Shown here: one piece after another, positions 2,253-38,091 of the stretch
Layout of the letters: each line of letters opens with the position of its first letter
Position numbering within the stretch: position 1 is the stretch's first letter
Origin: a virus
Virus record (IMG/VR): IMGVR_UViG_3300028589_000020
Span: 1-38,091 of that record
Direction: 5' to 3' (one strand)
DNA: 38,091 bases
The notes under the pieces: model-generated
What the model was told of the DNA's origin: nothing
Databases searched by the model: none
The model's input: the letters and a program-made list of their open reading frames with translations, nothing else
Made by a program: the position numbers and the translations under genes

Positions 2253-2582
2253 TCAGTCTGCAGCGGGAGTAGATTGGCCTAGAAACTTGTTAACCGCCTT
2301 CGTTACCGCGAACGGCATGAATACGAGGGCGCTGCCACCAAGGAGGAATGCAGCAGAAGAATCGGGGATCTTCAAAGCATAGGCTGGATAGGCAGAACAA
2401 AAAACGAACGCAAATCCATTAGGCAAGGTAGAAAATGTAAATCCTCTGACCAGACATTCGAAGACACGAGACGAGTCAAGCTTGTAGCCGAAAAAGTACA
2501 GTAGCCCTGATGAAAATCCAACGAGTGCACTGATGGGCTGAAGGTTTGTAAAATAAGTATCGGCAGCCTCAAACAGTGTCAT
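2253..2582 (-). CDS. CI-linked membrane protein, Rex-position cassette gene 3
   Basis: A 109-residue hydrophobic protein with probable membrane segments near residues 17-32, 47-69 and 75-97. It is the last gene of the operon headed by the phage repressor, and its ATG overlaps the stop of the preceding gene (ATGA). In lambda this place holds rexB, a four-segment membrane protein for phage exclusion. No sequence likeness to RexB is claimed; the parallel is of position and topology. Likely expressed in the lysogen. Confidence 0.75.
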   Translation of the reverse strand: MTLFEAADTYFTNLQPISALVGFSSGLLYFFGYKLDSSRVFECLVRGFTFSTLPNGFAFVFCSAYPAYALKIPDSSAAFLLGGSALVFMPFAVTKAVNKFLGQSTPAAD

Positions 2583-2971
2583 CGTGCGTCCCTTGCCTTT
2601 ACCGAAACGATCGCCCCAACGACAAGGCCAACCAGAGCAGCTGCCAAACCTAAGCCATTAGGCGTCGGCGAGTCGGAAGCTATCATCCATGAAACTCCGG
2701 AAACAGAACTGAAGAAAAAACCTGCGCCGATCATCACAGGCAAGTCTCGCAGATCGTAACGTAAATGCCCTTTCATGATTTCCCTCCTATCGTCCAATGC
2801 AATCCTATGCATGTAGGAAGTGTACATCACCATGATCTCTTCGTTGTCGACTCCAACGATAACAGACGTCTCTGTGTTATCAAGGTAGGAGAAGAAATCA
2901 ACGGATCCGTTGTCACAGGTGGCAGGGTATGATTCGTATTCAATTGGCTCGAAATATGTGCATGTTGTCAT
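2579..2971 (-). CDS. CI-linked membrane protein, Rex-position cassette gene 2
   Basis: About 130 residues: a soluble N-terminal part rich in Tyr, Asp and Glu (residues 1-80), then two hydrophobic segments near the C-terminus (about 79-100 and 107-124), ending in a short basic tail. I chose ATG 2971, which overlaps the upstream stop as ATGA, over the ATG at 2983. Family not recognised. Coupling on both sides to other small genes suggests the three products act together at the membrane. Confidence 0.75.
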   Translation of the reverse strand: MTTCTYFEPIEYESYPATCDNGSVDFFSYLDNTETSVIVGVDNEEIMVMYTSYMHRIALDDRREIMKGHLRYDLRDLPVMIGAGFFFSSVSGVSWMIASDSPTPNGLGLAAALVGLVVGAIVSVKARDAR

Positions 2972-3300
2972 AACTCGGGCCACCCGCTCTCAGTCGCCAT
3001 GGCGTGGTAAGTCTGTGGCGCGTGGAAGAGGCGCGTATCTCCACACTGACTACAAGTAGCGGCAAAGAACCATACGCCAACCTTAGCGATATTTGCCGAT
3101 GGAGTCGCAATCACACCTGCGGTCCCACCTTCAGGCGAAGGGGCGGGGTTGTAGGTGCCGCCTACACAGAACACACATGACCTTCCTGGCCTCATGCGTT
3201 CTAGGTAATCCACCAACGATTGCAGCGGCACCTTAGCCATTTTCTGCTTGCGTTCTGCGCCCGAGGTTAACGTCACCTCGCCGATTTCTTCATTAGGCAT
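2968..3300 (-). CDS. CI-linked zinc-ribbon protein, Rex-position cassette gene 1
   Basis: A 110-residue soluble protein. CVFC in the middle and CSQC near the C-terminus make a four-cysteine zinc site. Start 3300 is preferred because AAAGGAG lies 8 nt upstream; the longer form from 3336 would overlap the repressor's stop. It directly follows the repressor gene and is coupled by ATGA to the next gene. Function unknown; a sensor or effector role with the two membrane partners is only an inference. Confidence 0.7.
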   Translation of the reverse strand: MPNEEIGEVTLTSGAERKQKMAKVPLQSLVDYLERMRPGRSCVFCVGGTYNPAPSPEGGTAGVIATPSANIAKVGVWFFAATCSQCGDTRLFHAPQTYHAMATESGWPEL

Positions 3301-3325
3301 TAGTAAAACTCCTTTCTCTTTCGGC

Positions 3326-4490: not shown

Positions 4491-4691
4491 ATGTACATGG
4501 ACCCCAATCAAAAGCGCGCCATCCCGGTGAAGGTTCGATTCGAACCAGTGCTTGATCGGATTCTGCGTAAAGCCGCGACCAAAACCCGTATGCAGCACGC
4601 CACCTACCTCTACGAAATCATCGAGTGGGCAGTGGCCAATGGCGTGATCGAGGAACTCATGCAGGACAAACAAGAAGATATCGCGGGCTGA
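4491..4691 (+). CDS. small early-right protein, possible DNA-binding
   Basis: A 66-residue basic protein (IPVKVRFEPVLDRILRKAATKTRMQH ...). A beta strand followed by two helices (about 11-57) is reminiscent of a ribbon-helix-helix regulator, but I do not see a firm family signature. AGGAG lies 10 nt before the ATG. It stands in the place of lambda cII, next to cro, and could be a lysis-lysogeny regulator; this is position only. Confidence 0.65.
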   Translation: MYMDPNQKRAIPVKVRFEPVLDRILRKAATKTRMQHATYLYEIIEWAVANGVIEELMQDKQEDIAG

Positions 4692-4710
4692 AGGGCCTAT
4701 GGAGGCCTAA

Positions 4711-4926
4711 ATGCATTTCGACATCGACAGGCTGTCGCCGGAAGCCCGACGGCAGGTGTTGGCACTTATGGAGGCCAACGGACTGACCCTCGGAGAAAGC
4801 CTTAACCAGATCGTGGAAGAGGCGGTATCCGATGGAGCAACTTCGGCAGTGGGGCGGAGGAAGGCAAAAGTCCTCCAGCTAGTGGTGACCCCAAAAAGGG
4901 CCTCTGGCAGGGACTCTTCGGGGTAA
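4711..4926 (+). CDS. small early-right protein, possible ribbon-helix-helix
   Basis: A 71-residue protein: helical first half (LSPEARRQVLALMEANGLTL then ESLNQIVEEAV) and a basic tail rich in K and R. GGAGG sits 6 nt upstream of ATG. Follows the previous small gene by 19 bp and so shares the PR transcript. Function unknown; the two adjacent small regulators may belong together. The region around its stop holds the direct repeat GGGCCTCTG twice (about 4901 and 4933) within an imperfect inverted repeat. Confidence 0.6.
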   Translation: MHFDIDRLSPEARRQVLALMEANGLTLGESLNQIVEEAVSDGATSAVGRRKAKVLQLVVTPKRASGRDSSG

Positions 4927-4955
4927 TCCAGAGGGCCTCTGCCAAATCCGAGACG

Positions 4956-4982
4956 AAAAAAAGCCGGGGTAGTGACCCGGCT
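4956..4982 (-). terminator. hairpin with T-tract reading leftward
   Basis: Stem AGCCGGG/CCCGGCT with a 7-nt loop; on the minus strand it is followed by seven T. Read rightward the tract is only CTCTCTT, so it would be a weak terminator for the PR transcript. It may block antisense transcription into cro, or act as a tR1-like weak stop. Confidence 0.45.
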
Positions 4983-5011
4983 CTCTTAAGCATCTCTGTG
5001 GGACGAATTAT

Positions 5012-5869
5012 ATGCACACCACAACATCAACAATCAATACCCCGGCCAGTGTCGCGACACAATTTGGCAACGGTGAAAACGTGTCGCGCAATTCATCCGT
5101 GATTCCGTTCGATTTCGACGGGGCCGCAATCCGCGTAATCACCGACAAGCTCGGAGATCCGTGGTTTGTAGCGCGTGACGTAGCCGACGCACTTGGCTAC
5201 TCGAAACCGGAGAACGCCGTAGCACGTCATTGCAAGGCTGCGACCACTACCCCGAAACAGGGTGGTGGTTTCATGACCGTTATCCCGGAGCGCGACCTGT
5301 ACCGACTGGTGATGAGGTCGAAGCTTCCGGCCGCCGAGCAATTCGAAGAGTGGGTAGTCGGCCAGGTGCTGCCGAGCATTCGCAAGACAGGCCAGTACGC
5401 CGTGTCTGCGCCGAACAACTCGAAGATCGTGGGCGAGCTGGCAATCCTTGAGTGTTTCGATCGCCTGCTCAAGCCGGCGGCGTCGAGCAAAATGATGATG
5501 CTTGCCCAAATCGCCGCCAATAACGGACTCGATGCGAAATTCCTTCCGGGCTACGCCATAGATGCAGCGCCTGACGCCACGGGCGGCTCTTCGATGCCAA
5601 CCAAGGCCGTTACCGCCCTGATTAAAGAGCACGCCATCAGCAGCACGGCGCCAGCCTTCAATCGCGCTCTCGCCGAGCATGGCTACCTCAAAACCCTGCA
5701 GCGCCGTAACTCCAAAGGGGAAACAGTCGACTTCTGGTCCGTGACTGAAAAGGGCCTCAAGTACGGCAAGAACCTCACCAGCCCTCAATGCCCGCGCGAG
5801 ACGCAACCTCACTGGTACGTCGATCGCTTCCTTGAGCTTGCCGCGCTTATCGGCAAAGGACGCCCATGA
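5012..5869 (+). CDS. ant: phage antirepressor, BRO-N domain
   Basis: A 285-residue protein. BRO N-terminal domain at about 31-130 (IPFDFDG..IRVI ... DPWFVARDVADALGY ... RKTGQYA), then a linker and a C-terminal domain ending in the WSVTEKGLKYGKN ... RETQPHWYVDRF signature seen in Pseudomonas phage antirepressors. Family members counteract repressors. ATG 5012 gives a 30-residue extension before the BRO domain; a palindromic repeat element (5046-5090) lies inside this extension, so an internal start such as GTG 5099 is possible. Ends overlapping the replication gene. Confidence 0.85.
   Translation: MHTTTSTINTPASVATQFGNGENVSRNSSVIPFDFDGAAIRVITDKLGDPWFVARDVADALGYSKPENAVARHCKAATTTPKQGGGFMTVIPERDLYRLVMRSKLPAAEQFEEWVVGQVLPSIRKTGQYAVSAPNNSKIVGELAILECFDRLLKPAASSKMMMLAQIAANNGLDAKFLPGYAIDAAPDATGGSSMPTKAVTALIKEHAISSTAPAFNRALAEHGYLKTLQRRNSKGETVDFWSVTEKGLKYGKNLTSPQCPRETQPHWYVDRFLELAALIGKGRP
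5046..5090 (+). repeat. 45-bp twin-palindrome element, copy A
   Basis: Contains GTGTCGCGACAC (5049-5060, perfect 12-bp palindrome) and a second partial site GTGTCGCGCA (5081-5090), 32 bp start to start. The whole 45 bp reappears in opposite orientation at 10808-10852: the first 21 bases are identical, about 35 of 45 overall, and no gap is needed. Here it lies in the first codons of the antirepressor (residues 12-26). Possible operator pair or antisense-pairing region. Confidence 0.75.
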
Positions 5870-9510: not shown

Positions 9511-9586
9511 ATCCCCTAGTAGCTTAACTGGATAGAGCGGCTCTCTAACTAAGGGTCAGGTGCAGGTTCAAATCCTGCCTGGGATG
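9511..9586 (+). tRNA. degenerate tRNA-like gene
   Basis: Canonical parts: positions 8-9 TA; D stem GCTT/GAGC with loop AACTGGATA; anticodon stem GCTCT/AGGGT (two G-U pairs) with loop CTAACTA; variable loop CAGGT; T arm GCAGG-TTCAAAT-CCTGC. Odd parts: the acceptor pairs cleanly for only five positions unless two 5' bases bulge, there is no encoded CCA, and the loop would read anticodon AAC (valine) with T rather than a purine at position 37. Flanked on both sides by terminators. It may be a decayed tRNA, a tRNA mimic or a processing signal. Confidence 0.5.
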
Positions 9587-9594
9587 AATTTTTA

Positions 9595-33798: not shown

Positions 33799-33813
33799 GC
33801 CTGGAGAAAAGTG

Positions 33814-34236
33814 ATGGCTGTTACCGAAAAAGACCGCGACATTCTTGCCCGCACGCTGTGGGGCGAGGCGCGAGGCGAGGGACCCGCAGGCCAGATCGCC
33901 GTGGCGTGGACGATCCGCAACCGCGTGTTCGATGGCAAGGAGAAGTCGTGGTGGGGTGAAGGCTACGCGGGCGTGTGCCAAAAGCCGTGGCAGTTCAGCT
34001 GCTGGAACAAAACCGACCCGAACTATCAGTTCCTGATCGGCGTGAAGCAGATCCCGTTCCGCGAGCTGGCGCAGTGCCGGGTCGTGGCTGGCCAGGTTAT
34101 CGATGGCAAGGTGCCGGATCCTACCGGCGGAGCCACCCATTATTACGCCACCAGCATCAAGGTGCCGGCTTGGGCGGCGACGGCCAAACAGACACTCAAG
34201 CTCGGTCACCACATCTTCTTCAAGGATGTGAGCTGA
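33814..34236 (+). CDS. cell wall hydrolase, SleB type (likely endolysin)
   Basis: A 140-residue Hydrolase_2/SleB family protein. LARTLWGEARGEGPAGQIAVAWTIRNRV has the catalytic Glu near residue 18, and C-terminal GGATHYYATSIKVPAWA is also typical. It cleaves peptidoglycan glycan strands. No signal peptide is seen, so it would need the holin. It lies 23.5 kb from the holin-Rz genes, which have no endolysin. GGAG lies 7 nt before ATG 33814. Confidence 0.88.
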   Translation: MAVTEKDRDILARTLWGEARGEGPAGQIAVAWTIRNRVFDGKEKSWWGEGYAGVCQKPWQFSCWNKTDPNYQFLIGVKQIPFRELAQCRVVAGQVIDGKVPDPTGGATHYYATSIKVPAWAATAKQTLKLGHHIFFKDVS

Positions 34237-34286
34237 TGAAACAGATTTTCCCTTAAGAAGCTCCTGCTTAAGAGTGACTTGCCAAC

Positions 34287-34314
34287 TTTACACTTTGAAG
34301 GTCGTTAGTATAAA
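34287..34314 (+). promoter_or_regulatory. promoter of the Cys-rich cargo gene
   Basis: -35 TTTACA (34287-34292), 16-nt spacer, -10 TATAAA (34309-34314). It lies in a visibly AT-rich stretch after the hydrolase. With the terminator at 34765 it frames one gene as an independent unit. Confidence 0.6.
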
Positions 34315-34472
34315 TATGTTTCATATGTGAGAAGTTTTGGTTGTTTGTATATTGTGGAGGAGATTTCTATTTCTAATTGGTATTGTCAGGCGCTTGGTTT
34401 AGGTTGTTAGTTTTGTTCGGTGGTCTATCTTCTCTATGGGGTCGAAATTTAAATGCAGATGAGGGATTGATC

Positions 34473-34733
34473 ATGGCGGATATAATTGCAACTGAATCTA
34501 CCAATGCAAAAGATTTGAAAATCACATTTGAAGTAAGTGGCGATGACTATGTGCTTTATGTGAAGGAGTCCGCGATAACTACCATGGATAAAAATGACAT
34601 AATAAATGCACTGAAAAGTCAGCTGGAATGTGCGCTGAGGTGTAGTAGTAAAGCAAGTTTTGGAGCATGTGTAGCAAGATGTTTGTTGGATGGTCAAGTT
34701 TGTGATGGAGGAGTTGATAACTGTTCTGAGTAG
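34473..34733 (+). CDS. AT-rich cargo gene, Cys-rich small protein
   Basis: An 86-residue protein. The acidic N-terminal domain (about 1-55) precedes a C-terminal tail with six cysteines (ECALRC, GACVARC, then GQVC and DNC). ATG 34473 has GAGGG 8 nt upstream. The same frame is open upstream to a TTG at 34377 and would add a hydrophobic stretch resembling a signal anchor, but without a fitting ribosome site. Codon use is unlike the flanking genes. I know no family; the leader-plus-Cys-rich-tail plan recalls secreted or modified peptides, or a zinc protein. Confidence 0.72.
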   Translation: MADIIATESTNAKDLKITFEVSGDDYVLYVKESAITTMDKNDIINALKSQLECALRCSSKASFGACVARCLLDGQVCDGGVDNCSE

Positions 34734-34764
34734 CTAGAAGGGTATTACCGGCTCCATCACTGGT

Positions 34765-34797
34765 GGTGCGGATATACATGCTATCTGCACCATTTTT
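34765..34797 (+). terminator. terminator of the Cys-rich cargo gene
   Basis: A ten-pair stem GGTGCGGATA/TATCTGCACC with one G-U pair and a 7-nt loop, then A and five T. It lies 32 bp after the cargo stop. Confidence 0.75.
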
Positions 34798-34922
34798 AGC
34801 AGGTGCGTAATCTGGACCGGAAGATATGGGCAGAGCATGGTATGACGTCTTGCATCACCATCGATAACGCGTCAAACGCCCTCATTCGCTATTCTCGGCA
34901 CTTTCCAATTGGAGGTGGCGAT

Positions 34923-35153
34923 ATGGACGGTGTAAAGCTGAGTCCAAATATAGAGCGCGCCGCGGACAAGCTTCTAGCTCAGATTGCTCGAGCGGACTCG
35001 ATGATCATTGCGGCCAAGGCCGGTGCCAAAGCAGAGGGATTCGTCTATGGCCTGGAGTCGGCGCGCGCCTTAACCGATTCAACTATCGATAAGCTCTATG
35101 TGATCTTCGACAAAGCGACCGAGAACCGCCTGCGCGCGCTGAGTTCGGCTTAA
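34923..35153 (+). CDS. small hypothetical protein
   Basis: A 76-residue helical protein (LSPNIERAADKLLAQIARADSMIIAAKAGAKAEGF ... STIDKLYVIFDKATENRL). GGAGG stands 7 nt before ATG 34923, so I reject the longer in-frame starts at 34803 and 34842. Known from Pseudomonas prophages without a function. It overlaps tail to tail by 4 bp with the SRAP gene on the other strand. Confidence 0.75.
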   Translation: MDGVKLSPNIERAADKLLAQIARADSMIIAAKAGAKAEGFVYGLESARALTDSTIDKLYVIFDKATENRLRALSSA

Positions 35154-35845
35154 AACAACCTGTTTTCCTCAATCTGTTTGATAAGGTCGGGACCCTGATT
35201 GCGGACATTGCCCAGGGCGCGATCGACCTTGAACCATTCGAAAGCCTCGGATGGCTCGCCCTCGTGCAGCACCATTTGTTCGGCGCGTTCGTTGGGCGTG
35301 GCCGGGTCGAGCCATTCCCGCGCGAGCTCTGGCGGGAGAGCGACCGGCCGCCGGTCGTGAATGTCGACCATGCCGCCGGCGCTGTCGGCAGTGATGATCA
35401 CAAAGCCGTCGTGCTCGCCGGGGCCGTGCTCCTCATTCGGGTATTGGCCAATCGCGGCGCAGAGGATGGGAGATTGGTCGCGGTGCCTGATCAGGTAGGG
35501 CTGCTTCTTCGGCCCACCTTCGTCTACCCACTCGAACCAATTGTTGATCGCGATGATTGCCCGGTGCGGCCAGATCGCGCGGAAGAACGGGCCGTGGGCG
35601 ACTTTCTCCACGCGGGCGTTGATTGGTGCGGCGCGGTCTTTTGCCCAATGTGGGCGCCATCCCCAGCGAACCATGTCCACGTGCAGAAACTCGCCTTCCT
35701 GGTGGAAGAGGGCAAGTTGAGTGGTCGGCGCGGCGTTGTATCGATCGAGCGGTTGCTCACCCACCGAGTTGATCAGCGCGTTCGACATGCTGAGCGCTGC
35801 AACGAAGTCGTGAATGCCGCTGTACTGGGTAAGTCGTCCGCACAT
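35150..35845 (-). CDS. SRAP-family abasic-site protein (YedK/HMCES-like)
   Basis: A 231-residue SRAP protein that forms a covalent link with abasic sites in single-stranded DNA. Start 35845 makes Cys2 the residue exposed after Met removal, as the chemistry requires (MCGR); GAGGG is upstream. Other active-site residues align with YedK: N76, E105 (NNWFEWV) and H163 (IHDRRP). It is second in a leftward operon 19 bp after the zinc-ribbon gene at 35871 and under a LexA box, so SOS-induced. An extra copy on a phage may protect its replicating DNA. Confidence 0.92.
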   Translation of the reverse strand: MCGRLTQYSGIHDFVAALSMSNALINSVGEQPLDRYNAAPTTQLALFHQEGEFLHVDMVRWGWRPHWAKDRAAPINARVEKVAHGPFFRAIWPHRAIIAINNWFEWVDEGGPKKQPYLIRHRDQSPILCAAIGQYPNEEHGPGEHDGFVIITADSAGGMVDIHDRRPVALPPELAREWLDPATPNERAEQMVLHEGEPSEAFEWFKVDRALGNVRNQGPDLIKQIEENRLF

Positions 35846-35870
35846 TGCCATGCCCTCGGATGGATCTGAT

Positions 35871-36888: not shown

Positions 36889-37160
36889 TGGTTTCCTCCT
36901 TGGACGAAACCAGAGTAGCAGGGGGATTCAATGTCGGCAGAACGCCGGAGAAGGGCAAAGCGCTGGGTTATGCAAAGTCGGCATAATGCCAGCTTCTCAA
37001 TGCCCGATAGGGCTTCATTATTTACGTGAAATTTAAGGCCCTTTTTTTGGGCCGCAATCATTTTTCGATATGCGAAAGCAGTGGGCCGAATCTCAGTCTT
37101 TCGACTCTAATTGCGGCCCAAAAAATCGCATCAAAGCCGCAGCCCGCTTGATTCTGGCGC
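36889..37160. other. non-coding phage right arm before the attachment site
   Basis: 272 bp with no gene. It has the palindrome GGCATAATGCC (about 36974-36984) and a 16-bp inverted repeat at 37043-37125. The promoter of the gene at 36888 should be here. Likely former attP arm DNA. Confidence 0.5.
37043..37125. repeat. 16-bp perfect inverted repeat
   Basis: TTTTTTGGGCCGCAAT (37043-37058) is the exact reverse complement of ATTGCGGCCCAAAAAA (37110-37125), with 51 bp between. The left arm also forms its own hairpin GGCCC-T7-GGGCC (37038-37053 approx.). 36 bp before the tRNA fragment. Candidate integrase/accessory protein arm site, structured RNA or bidirectional terminator. Confidence 0.7.
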
Positions 37161-37219
37161 GGGACTTAAAATCCCCCGCTCGTAAGGGCGTGCCGGTTCG
37201 ATTCCGGCTTCGGGCACCA
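37161..37219 (+). other. attR: 3' fragment of tRNA-Leu (TAA)
   Basis: From the anticodon stem onward this is a tRNA-Leu: GGGACTTAAAATCCC with anticodon TAA, the long class II variable arm, T arm GCCGG-TTCGATT-CCGGC, acceptor TTCGGGC, A and encoded CCA. The 5' acceptor and D arm are missing; upstream DNA is phage. Phages that enter a tRNA 3' part leave just such a remnant at the far end, with the intact gene at the integrase end. That end is outside the window. Confidence 0.82.
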
Positions 37220-37227
37220 TAAATATC

Positions 37228-37268: not shown

Positions 37269-37363
37269 GTGCCGTGGAAATGTTTTCCACGCTCCTGACT
37301 GGCCATTCCGTCGCCGTCTGGTGCCTGGAGATCCACTCCTTTCTTCAGCGTCGACTGCATCCA

Positions 37364-38091
37364 TCAGCGAGTAAGCGTTTCCGGCGCTACGACCCATACG
37401 CTACAAGGCATTTTGTACAACAGATGCTCGACCGTGCTGCCAACCAGTCTGCCTATTCCTCGATGAGTGACGCGGCCCATTACGATCACATCGATGTCGT
37501 AAGCATCGGCATAGCTGGAAAGCACCTTGGCGGGATCGCCCACAATCATGTGCTGGTTTTCTGCCGGAATATTGTTGCGTGCAGCCAGCGCCTGGAAAGC
37601 TTCGCCTTGGGCATCGAACAGTTTCTTGGCTGCGCTGGAAGAAAAGATCGCGGACGCGTTATTGAAGCCGAATTCGGCAGCGCTGATCGATGACAGGTCA
37701 TGGGCATAAATCACGTCCAGGCTGCCATTGCAGACACTGGCCAGTCTTGCTGCTTCGCGCAGGATCCGATCGTTGAGGCCCTGGTATTGGCCCTCACGAT
37801 GGAAAGGGTCGACCGCCGCGACGATTCGGCGTGGCAGAGCGTTTTGAGCGTGGCTGACAAAATGCAGCGGCACCGGGCATTCGCGTAACAGGTGGATGTC
37901 CAGCGGCGTGAACATCAGCCGCGACAGAAGTGATTCGTGCTCCAGAGCCTTTATAAGGGCGGCCATCGGCTGTTCCTTCAAATGGATAAGGATCTCCTTC
38001 AAAGGATTGTCCACCCAGACGACCTCGGTGGTGACGGTCACTCCGATCTTGCGCAGCGGCCGGGCCTGGTCTTCGAGCCATTGATGATGGC
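37364..38091 (-). CDS. universal stress protein (UspA family), partial
   Basis: The C-terminal 242 residues are in the window; the frame is still open at the edge (HHQWLEDQARPLRKIG...), so the true start is beyond. Residues after about 70 are one UspA domain (RRIVAAVDPF ... VIYAHDLSS ... HMIVGDPAKVLSSYADAYDIDVIVMGRVTHRGIGRLVGSTVEHLLYKMPCSVWVV), with the nucleotide-site pattern G-x2-G-x9-G/S. The piece before it looks like the end of a first Usp domain, so a tandem UspE-like protein. A host gene flanking the prophage. Confidence 0.88.
   Translation of the reverse strand, partial: HHQWLEDQARPLRKIGVTVTTEVVWVDNPLKEILIHLKEQPMAALIKALEHESLLSRLMFTPLDIHLLRECPVPLHFVSHAQNALPRRIVAAVDPFHREGQYQGLNDRILREAARLASVCNGSLDVIYAHDLSSISAAEFGFNNASAIFSSSAAKKLFDAQGEAFQALAARNNIPAENQHMIVGDPAKVLSSYADAYDIDVIVMGRVTHRGIGRLVGSTVEHLLYKMPCSVWVVAPETLTR

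Follow-up and report, generated by a model that had tools for sequence, protein, structure and literature searches.

An orphan gene for a small cysteine-rich protein at a variable cargo site of a Pseudomonas prophage

Introduction

Prophages often carry accessory loci that are expressed in lysogeny, at times from a promoter of their own (PMC7067206), and 12 of the 14 such morons of P. aeruginosa that were tested in work cited there changed host phenotypes, phage immunity included. The locus described here resembles prophage morons in that it is an insert between phage genes with its own putative promoter and terminator and a deviant base composition, is absent from relatives, and lies at a site with variable cargo. 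It differs from them in that its product is not a member of any known family, and in that expression in the lysogen is read from the architecture of the unit.

The cysteines of the product recall another group of proteins, the alpha-hairpinins, which are characterized by a CX3C-X4-20-CX3C core with at most two extra Cys, a signal peptide or secretion, and two nested disulfides (PMC11591084). Like these and other CX3C...CX3C hairpin peptides, the protein has a C-x3-C-x8-C-x3-C core and a predicted helix-turn-helix, but it comes from a bacterial prophage, is acidic, and has a 50-residue part with predicted beta strands before the core and two extra Cys after it. Among prophage products, sublancin of SPbeta is a RiPP bacteriocin that is likewise small and Cys-rich and forms a helical hairpin. 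The locus described here, however, has no genes for a glycosyltransferase, a transporter, an oxidase or immunity, and its Cys spacing is x3 and not x6.

Prophage setting and cargo site

The window, i.e. the whole stretch of DNA that was analysed, is an IMG/VR virus sequence of 38,091 bases. At its right end, positions 37300-38091 match a stretch of the Pseudomonas genome G043 with 94% identity, and 37158-37220 are occupied by a partial tRNA-Leu, namely its 3' portion including CCA (anticodon TAA by reading), which was not called by ARAGORN because it is partial. A tRNA-Leu match was also obtained at this position. The identity at the right end and the partial tRNA-Leu together indicate a prophage with its right attachment side in view: the tRNA-Leu part is likely the right attachment site, the DNA beyond it is host chromosome close to G043, and this Pseudomonas prophage has a tRNA-Leu gene as its integration site. 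Direct att repeats of at least 18 bp were not found within each end of the window, and a comparison of its left and right ends gave only 16-17-bp matches, which is chance level. A tRNA-Val (9512-9587, anticodon AAC according to ARAGORN) lies inside the prophage.

The site of interest is bordered on the left by the endolysin gene, which likely starts at ATG 33814 and is the last late gene ahead of the site, and on the right by phrog_36962, a conserved gene and marker of Pseudomonas prophages that was found in 44 loci (5 genome and 39 viral). Anchored on these two genes, the site was compared across related Pseudomonas prophages, with 20 loci that have both genes compared at first. In 11 of the 20 (L007-L011, L023, L026, L027, L031, L033, L036) the two genes are only 53-59 bp apart, and one further short-interval locus was added later, whereas the interval is 686 bp here, so that the insert parts two genes that lie side by side in related phages. 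Elsewhere, unrelated AT-rich cargo is found between both anchors (669 bp in L004, 940 bp in L005, 395 bp in L012, 1150 bp in L044), and the same holds for L032, listed together with L005, and for other loci. Gaps of 689-693 bp are common to many relatives, but were left out of the AT-rich cargo count because their G+C content of 0.58-0.60 is normal.

Cargo also follows the same endolysin in L333, where a TIR_2 protein is encoded (2503-3318, minus strand; Pfam 8.3e-9; Thoeris ThsB-like 4.8e-6), and in L323, where the product is an acyltransferase (4563-5825, minus strand; Acyl_transf_3, 1.1e-29) of a family that includes O-antigen acetylases. In both loci phrog_36962 was not found in the stretch covered, so that this cargo lies after the endolysin gene and not strictly between both anchors. 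TIR proteins and acyltransferases are the kinds of genes expected of lysogenic conversion or defence, and further loci carry many unassigned genes after the same endolysin. Two of the AT-rich inserts encode a 160-aa protein with a weak match to PADLOC PDC-S66 in L004 (3385-3867, plus strand) and a DUF6864-like protein in a two-gene unit of L044 (2966-3779, minus strand).

The insert and its gene

Between 34200 and 34800 the G+C content is 0.365-0.43, as compared with 0.52-0.64 upstream (about 0.6 in the endolysin gene) and 0.53-0.68 downstream, which sets the insert apart from its neighbours. Taken as a whole, the unit has a G+C content of about 0.38, and its surroundings one of about 0.56-0.60. 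In searches with its DNA, phages and E. coli genomes gave no match and plasmids one 33-base chance match. The features of the site are compiled in Table 1. The putative promoter is the best site in the 236-nt upstream stretch and is equalled by 5.7% of dinucleotide shuffles (P = 0.057); it is not listed by the consensus tool because that tool demands a T at the last -10 position. The inverted repeat ahead of it is possibly an operator, or a remnant of a late-operon terminator that lacks the T run. An Rfam match to the leader was looked for and not found, and its folding gave no structure above that of shuffles. At the other end, the hairpin of the terminator (34764-34792) is strong, with an 11-bp stem and a 7-nt loop followed by T5, and it too is not listed by the consensus tool.

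Table 1. Features of the cargo site and its borders
Feature	Position	Strand	Evidence or remark
Endolysin (Hydrolase_2, cell wall hydrolase)	33811..34236	+	Pfam PF07486 6.9e-18; PHROG endolysin
Cargo insert, endolysin stop to phrog_36962 start	34237..34922		Site comparison; G+C drop
Inverted repeat CTTAAGAAG-CTC-CTGCTTAAG	34252..34272		14 bp upstream of the -35 box
Sigma-70-like promoter TTTACA-N16-TATAAA (putative)	34287..34314	+	10/12 consensus bases; TTTACA 34287-34292, 16-nt spacer, TATAAA 34309-34314
Leader, T/G-rich, ~155 nt	34320..34472	+	Contains in-frame TTG 34377, a weak alternative start
86-aa acidic Cys-rich orphan protein MADIIATEST...DNCSE	34473..34733	+	ORF, SD, codon-position bias
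Intrinsic terminator TGGTGCGGATA-TACATGC-TATCTGCACCA-TTTTT	34764..34797	+	Fold z = -2.4
phrog_36962 protein, 76 aa from ATG 34923	34923..35153	+	PHROG 6.7e-32

The single plausible ORF of the unit is preceded by an SD-like GAGG at 8 nt from its ATG, and its codon-position bias is gene-like (G1 0.40, C1 0.07, T3 0.40). The frame stays open as far back as TTG 34377, and a start there would result in a 118-aa reading with a hydrophobic N-terminus, but this extension is T-rich at every codon position and has no coding signal, and the SD-like GGAGGAG is about 14 nt away from the TTG. ATG 34473 is taken as the probable start codon and the region upstream of it as the leader. Compared with shuffled DNA, the length of the ORF stands out only moderately (P = 0.043, ATG ORFs) and the six-Cys content of its tail is marginal (P = 0.049), and as each of these values is marginal, the case for a coding gene rests on the combined evidence.

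The initial annotation had described an AT-rich stand-alone unit outside the late operon, with a good promoter, one gene and a clean terminator at 34287-34797. At the sequence level this description is borne out with regard to the base composition, the terminator, the one gene and the separation from the late operon, the unit lying at a variable site that the nearest relatives leave unfilled. To call the promoter good is fair, as it is the best upstream site, but not conclusive, as it surpasses chance only marginally in the shuffles.

The protein and the search for relatives

The encoded protein has a mass of 9.2 kDa, a pI of 4.41 and a net charge of about -6.5, and is thus acidic. Its Cys pattern is C53-x3-C57-x8-C66-x3-C70-x6-C77-x6-C84, and of the proposed tail of C-x3-C pairs, the six Cys and the pairs 53/57 and 66/70 stand, but 77 and 84 are x6-spaced and are not a third pair. 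The suggested search for the pattern showed that a CX3C-x4-20-CX3C motif is rare, as it occurs in 3 of 3363 distinct ORFs (60-150 aa, any frame, from the related loci and the window), the window's own included, which is the sole plausible gene among the three. In structure prediction, also proposed in the initial annotation, an AlphaFold2 single-sequence model of low confidence (mean pLDDT 65.6) has strands at residues 4-8, 15-21 and 24-30 and helices at 40-57 and 60-73, but a fold search with this weak model in PDB and BFVD found nothing below E = 0.001. The low-confidence model suggests a beta meander and a helical hairpin with one CX3C pair per helix by position, and this Cys-rich hairpin may be locked by metal or disulfides. 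Read from ATG 34473, no signal peptide is seen in the sequence.

No relative of the protein was found in any of the searches. In the profile libraries there were 0 matches in Pfam, and the best values were 0.15 in PHROGs and 0.067 in NCBIfam; the PADLOC models gave 0 families at E up to 10, which speaks against a known anti-phage defence protein, and the sequence search of PDB gave none. With no profile, sequence or fold match (the latter from a weak model), the protein could not be assigned to a known phage or general protein family in these libraries either, and no metal family of Pfam or PDB was matched. Scans of genome contigs and viral contigs with the full protein, and of viral contigs also with its two halves, found nothing; scans of this type register only sequences that share one of a few 8-residue peptides exactly, so that distant relatives would escape them. 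More sensitive, with fewer sequences covered, were tblastn against phages and plasmids, which gave no relative up to E = 10, and a six-frame search, which gave none either in 399 genomes of Pseudomonas, 369 of the class, 195 from relatives of the likely host and 10 records; as these genome sets overlap, about 750 distinct genomes or somewhat more were covered. The weak six-frame matches that were examined are antisense frames, unrelated proteins or short stretches, and their number is about the chance expectation, and the exact Cys spacing was met in viral contigs only in low-complexity or unrelated Cys runs, among the matches listed. The protein is thus the orphan without known match that it had been taken for, new to the databases searched, and as there is no homologue, neither purifying selection nor conserved residues can be demonstrated for it.

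Interpretation

As relatives have a cargo site between the endolysin gene and phrog_36962 that is either empty or otherwise filled, the best interpretation of the gene is that of a moron, i.e. of lysogenic-conversion cargo; the kind of locus is known, and what is new is the orphan gene in it. More specifically, we lean, if only slightly, towards a moron that is expressed in the lysogen and encodes a cytoplasmic protein-binding modulator of the carrier cell. An AT-rich unit would have entered the variable site, and its own promoter and terminator would, judging from the architecture, permit its transcription in the lysogen apart from that of the late operon. The product would be an acidic protein that presumably stays in the cytoplasm, composed of an N-terminal beta meander and a helical hairpin rich in Cys, and as a small protein-binding modulator it may alter the carrier in such a way that other phages are excluded or resisted or that a host function is changed, as the context of the site suggests. 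The neighbours at the site are diverse, so that a term like defence is guilt by location. The absence of the gene in relatives suggests that it is dispensable for the lytic cycle.

Since the gene shares the strand of the endolysin gene and lies directly downstream of it, a late gene of the phage with a part in lysis or particle maturation could be considered, but the nearest relatives lack it while retaining the endolysin gene and phrog_36962, it is AT-rich and has its own putative promoter, and the product has neither a TM segment nor a lipobox, as a holin or spanin should, which is why such a function is highly improbable. It is also quite unlikely that the insert has no functional protein gene, being either degenerate or non-coding AT-rich DNA with a fortuitous ORF or the source of an RNA product: although the zero homologues and the shuffle values for ORF length and Cys content are compatible with this, the codon-position bias, the SD at 8 nt and the end of the ORF just before a strong terminator point to a gene, and an Rfam match or a structured leader is not seen.

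If the gene is accepted, its six Cys within 32 residues and the lack of a signal peptide from the best start bring up a cytoplasmic metal- or redox-dependent regulator, in which the Cys bind Zn or Fe-S or act as a thiol switch for the control of a host or phage factor. In agreement with such a regulator, disulfides are less favoured than free thiols or metal in a reducing cytoplasm, but the CX3C pairs differ from the usual CXXC spacing of Zn or Fe-S sites and no metal family of Pfam or PDB matches, so that this explanation is unlikely. An exported disulfide-rich peptide of the bacteriocin or alpha-hairpinin type would have to start at TTG 34377 with a hydrophobic N-terminal signal. The core does fit that of alpha-hairpinins (PMC11591084), with C77 and C84 following it, the N-terminus of the 118-aa reading is hydrophobic and the low-confidence model contains a helical hairpin, but the extension has no coding bias and a distant SD, genes for export, immunity or modification are absent alongside, and the product is acidic, as most antimicrobial peptides are not, which together make export very unlikely. 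Membership in the alpha-hairpinins fails, as there is no signal peptide from ATG 34473 and the TTG extension is poorly supported. The initial annotation had also thought of a precursor peptide, and this was not supported: the neighbours of the single-gene unit are the endolysin gene and phrog_36962, the latter followed by a minus-strand SRAP/YedK-like gene, with no modification, peptidase or transport gene alongside, and the better-supported ATG start gives no signal peptide. Because such accessory genes are absent within the record, a RiPP or bacteriocin precursor is unlikely. A small toxin or modulator, which had been suggested as well, may still apply.

The moron with a cytoplasmic modulator thus remains the favoured reading. 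A much more far-reaching version of it, in which the protein represents a new bacterial family whose beta-meander domain presents a disulfide- or metal-locked twin-CX3C hairpin and which serves Pseudomonas lysogens as a single-gene phage-exclusion or defence factor, is rather unlikely, but if true, the protein would be the first member seen of that family. As there is a single sequence, functional claims await experiment, for which the Cys-rich orphan is a compact and testable candidate. New proteins for defence and host modification are to be had from variable cargo sites, and the comparison marks such a site between endolysin and phrog_36962 in Pseudomonas prophages, with contents that differ and are mostly uncharacterised AT-rich genes. 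The SRAP/YedK-like gene beside the site (35150-35851), which is annotated as SOS response-associated peptidase in the phages PseuP_222 and F116, has a similar counterpart in L038-L040 and L042 that is found upstream of phrog_36962 instead, and the gene order is therefore mosaic here.
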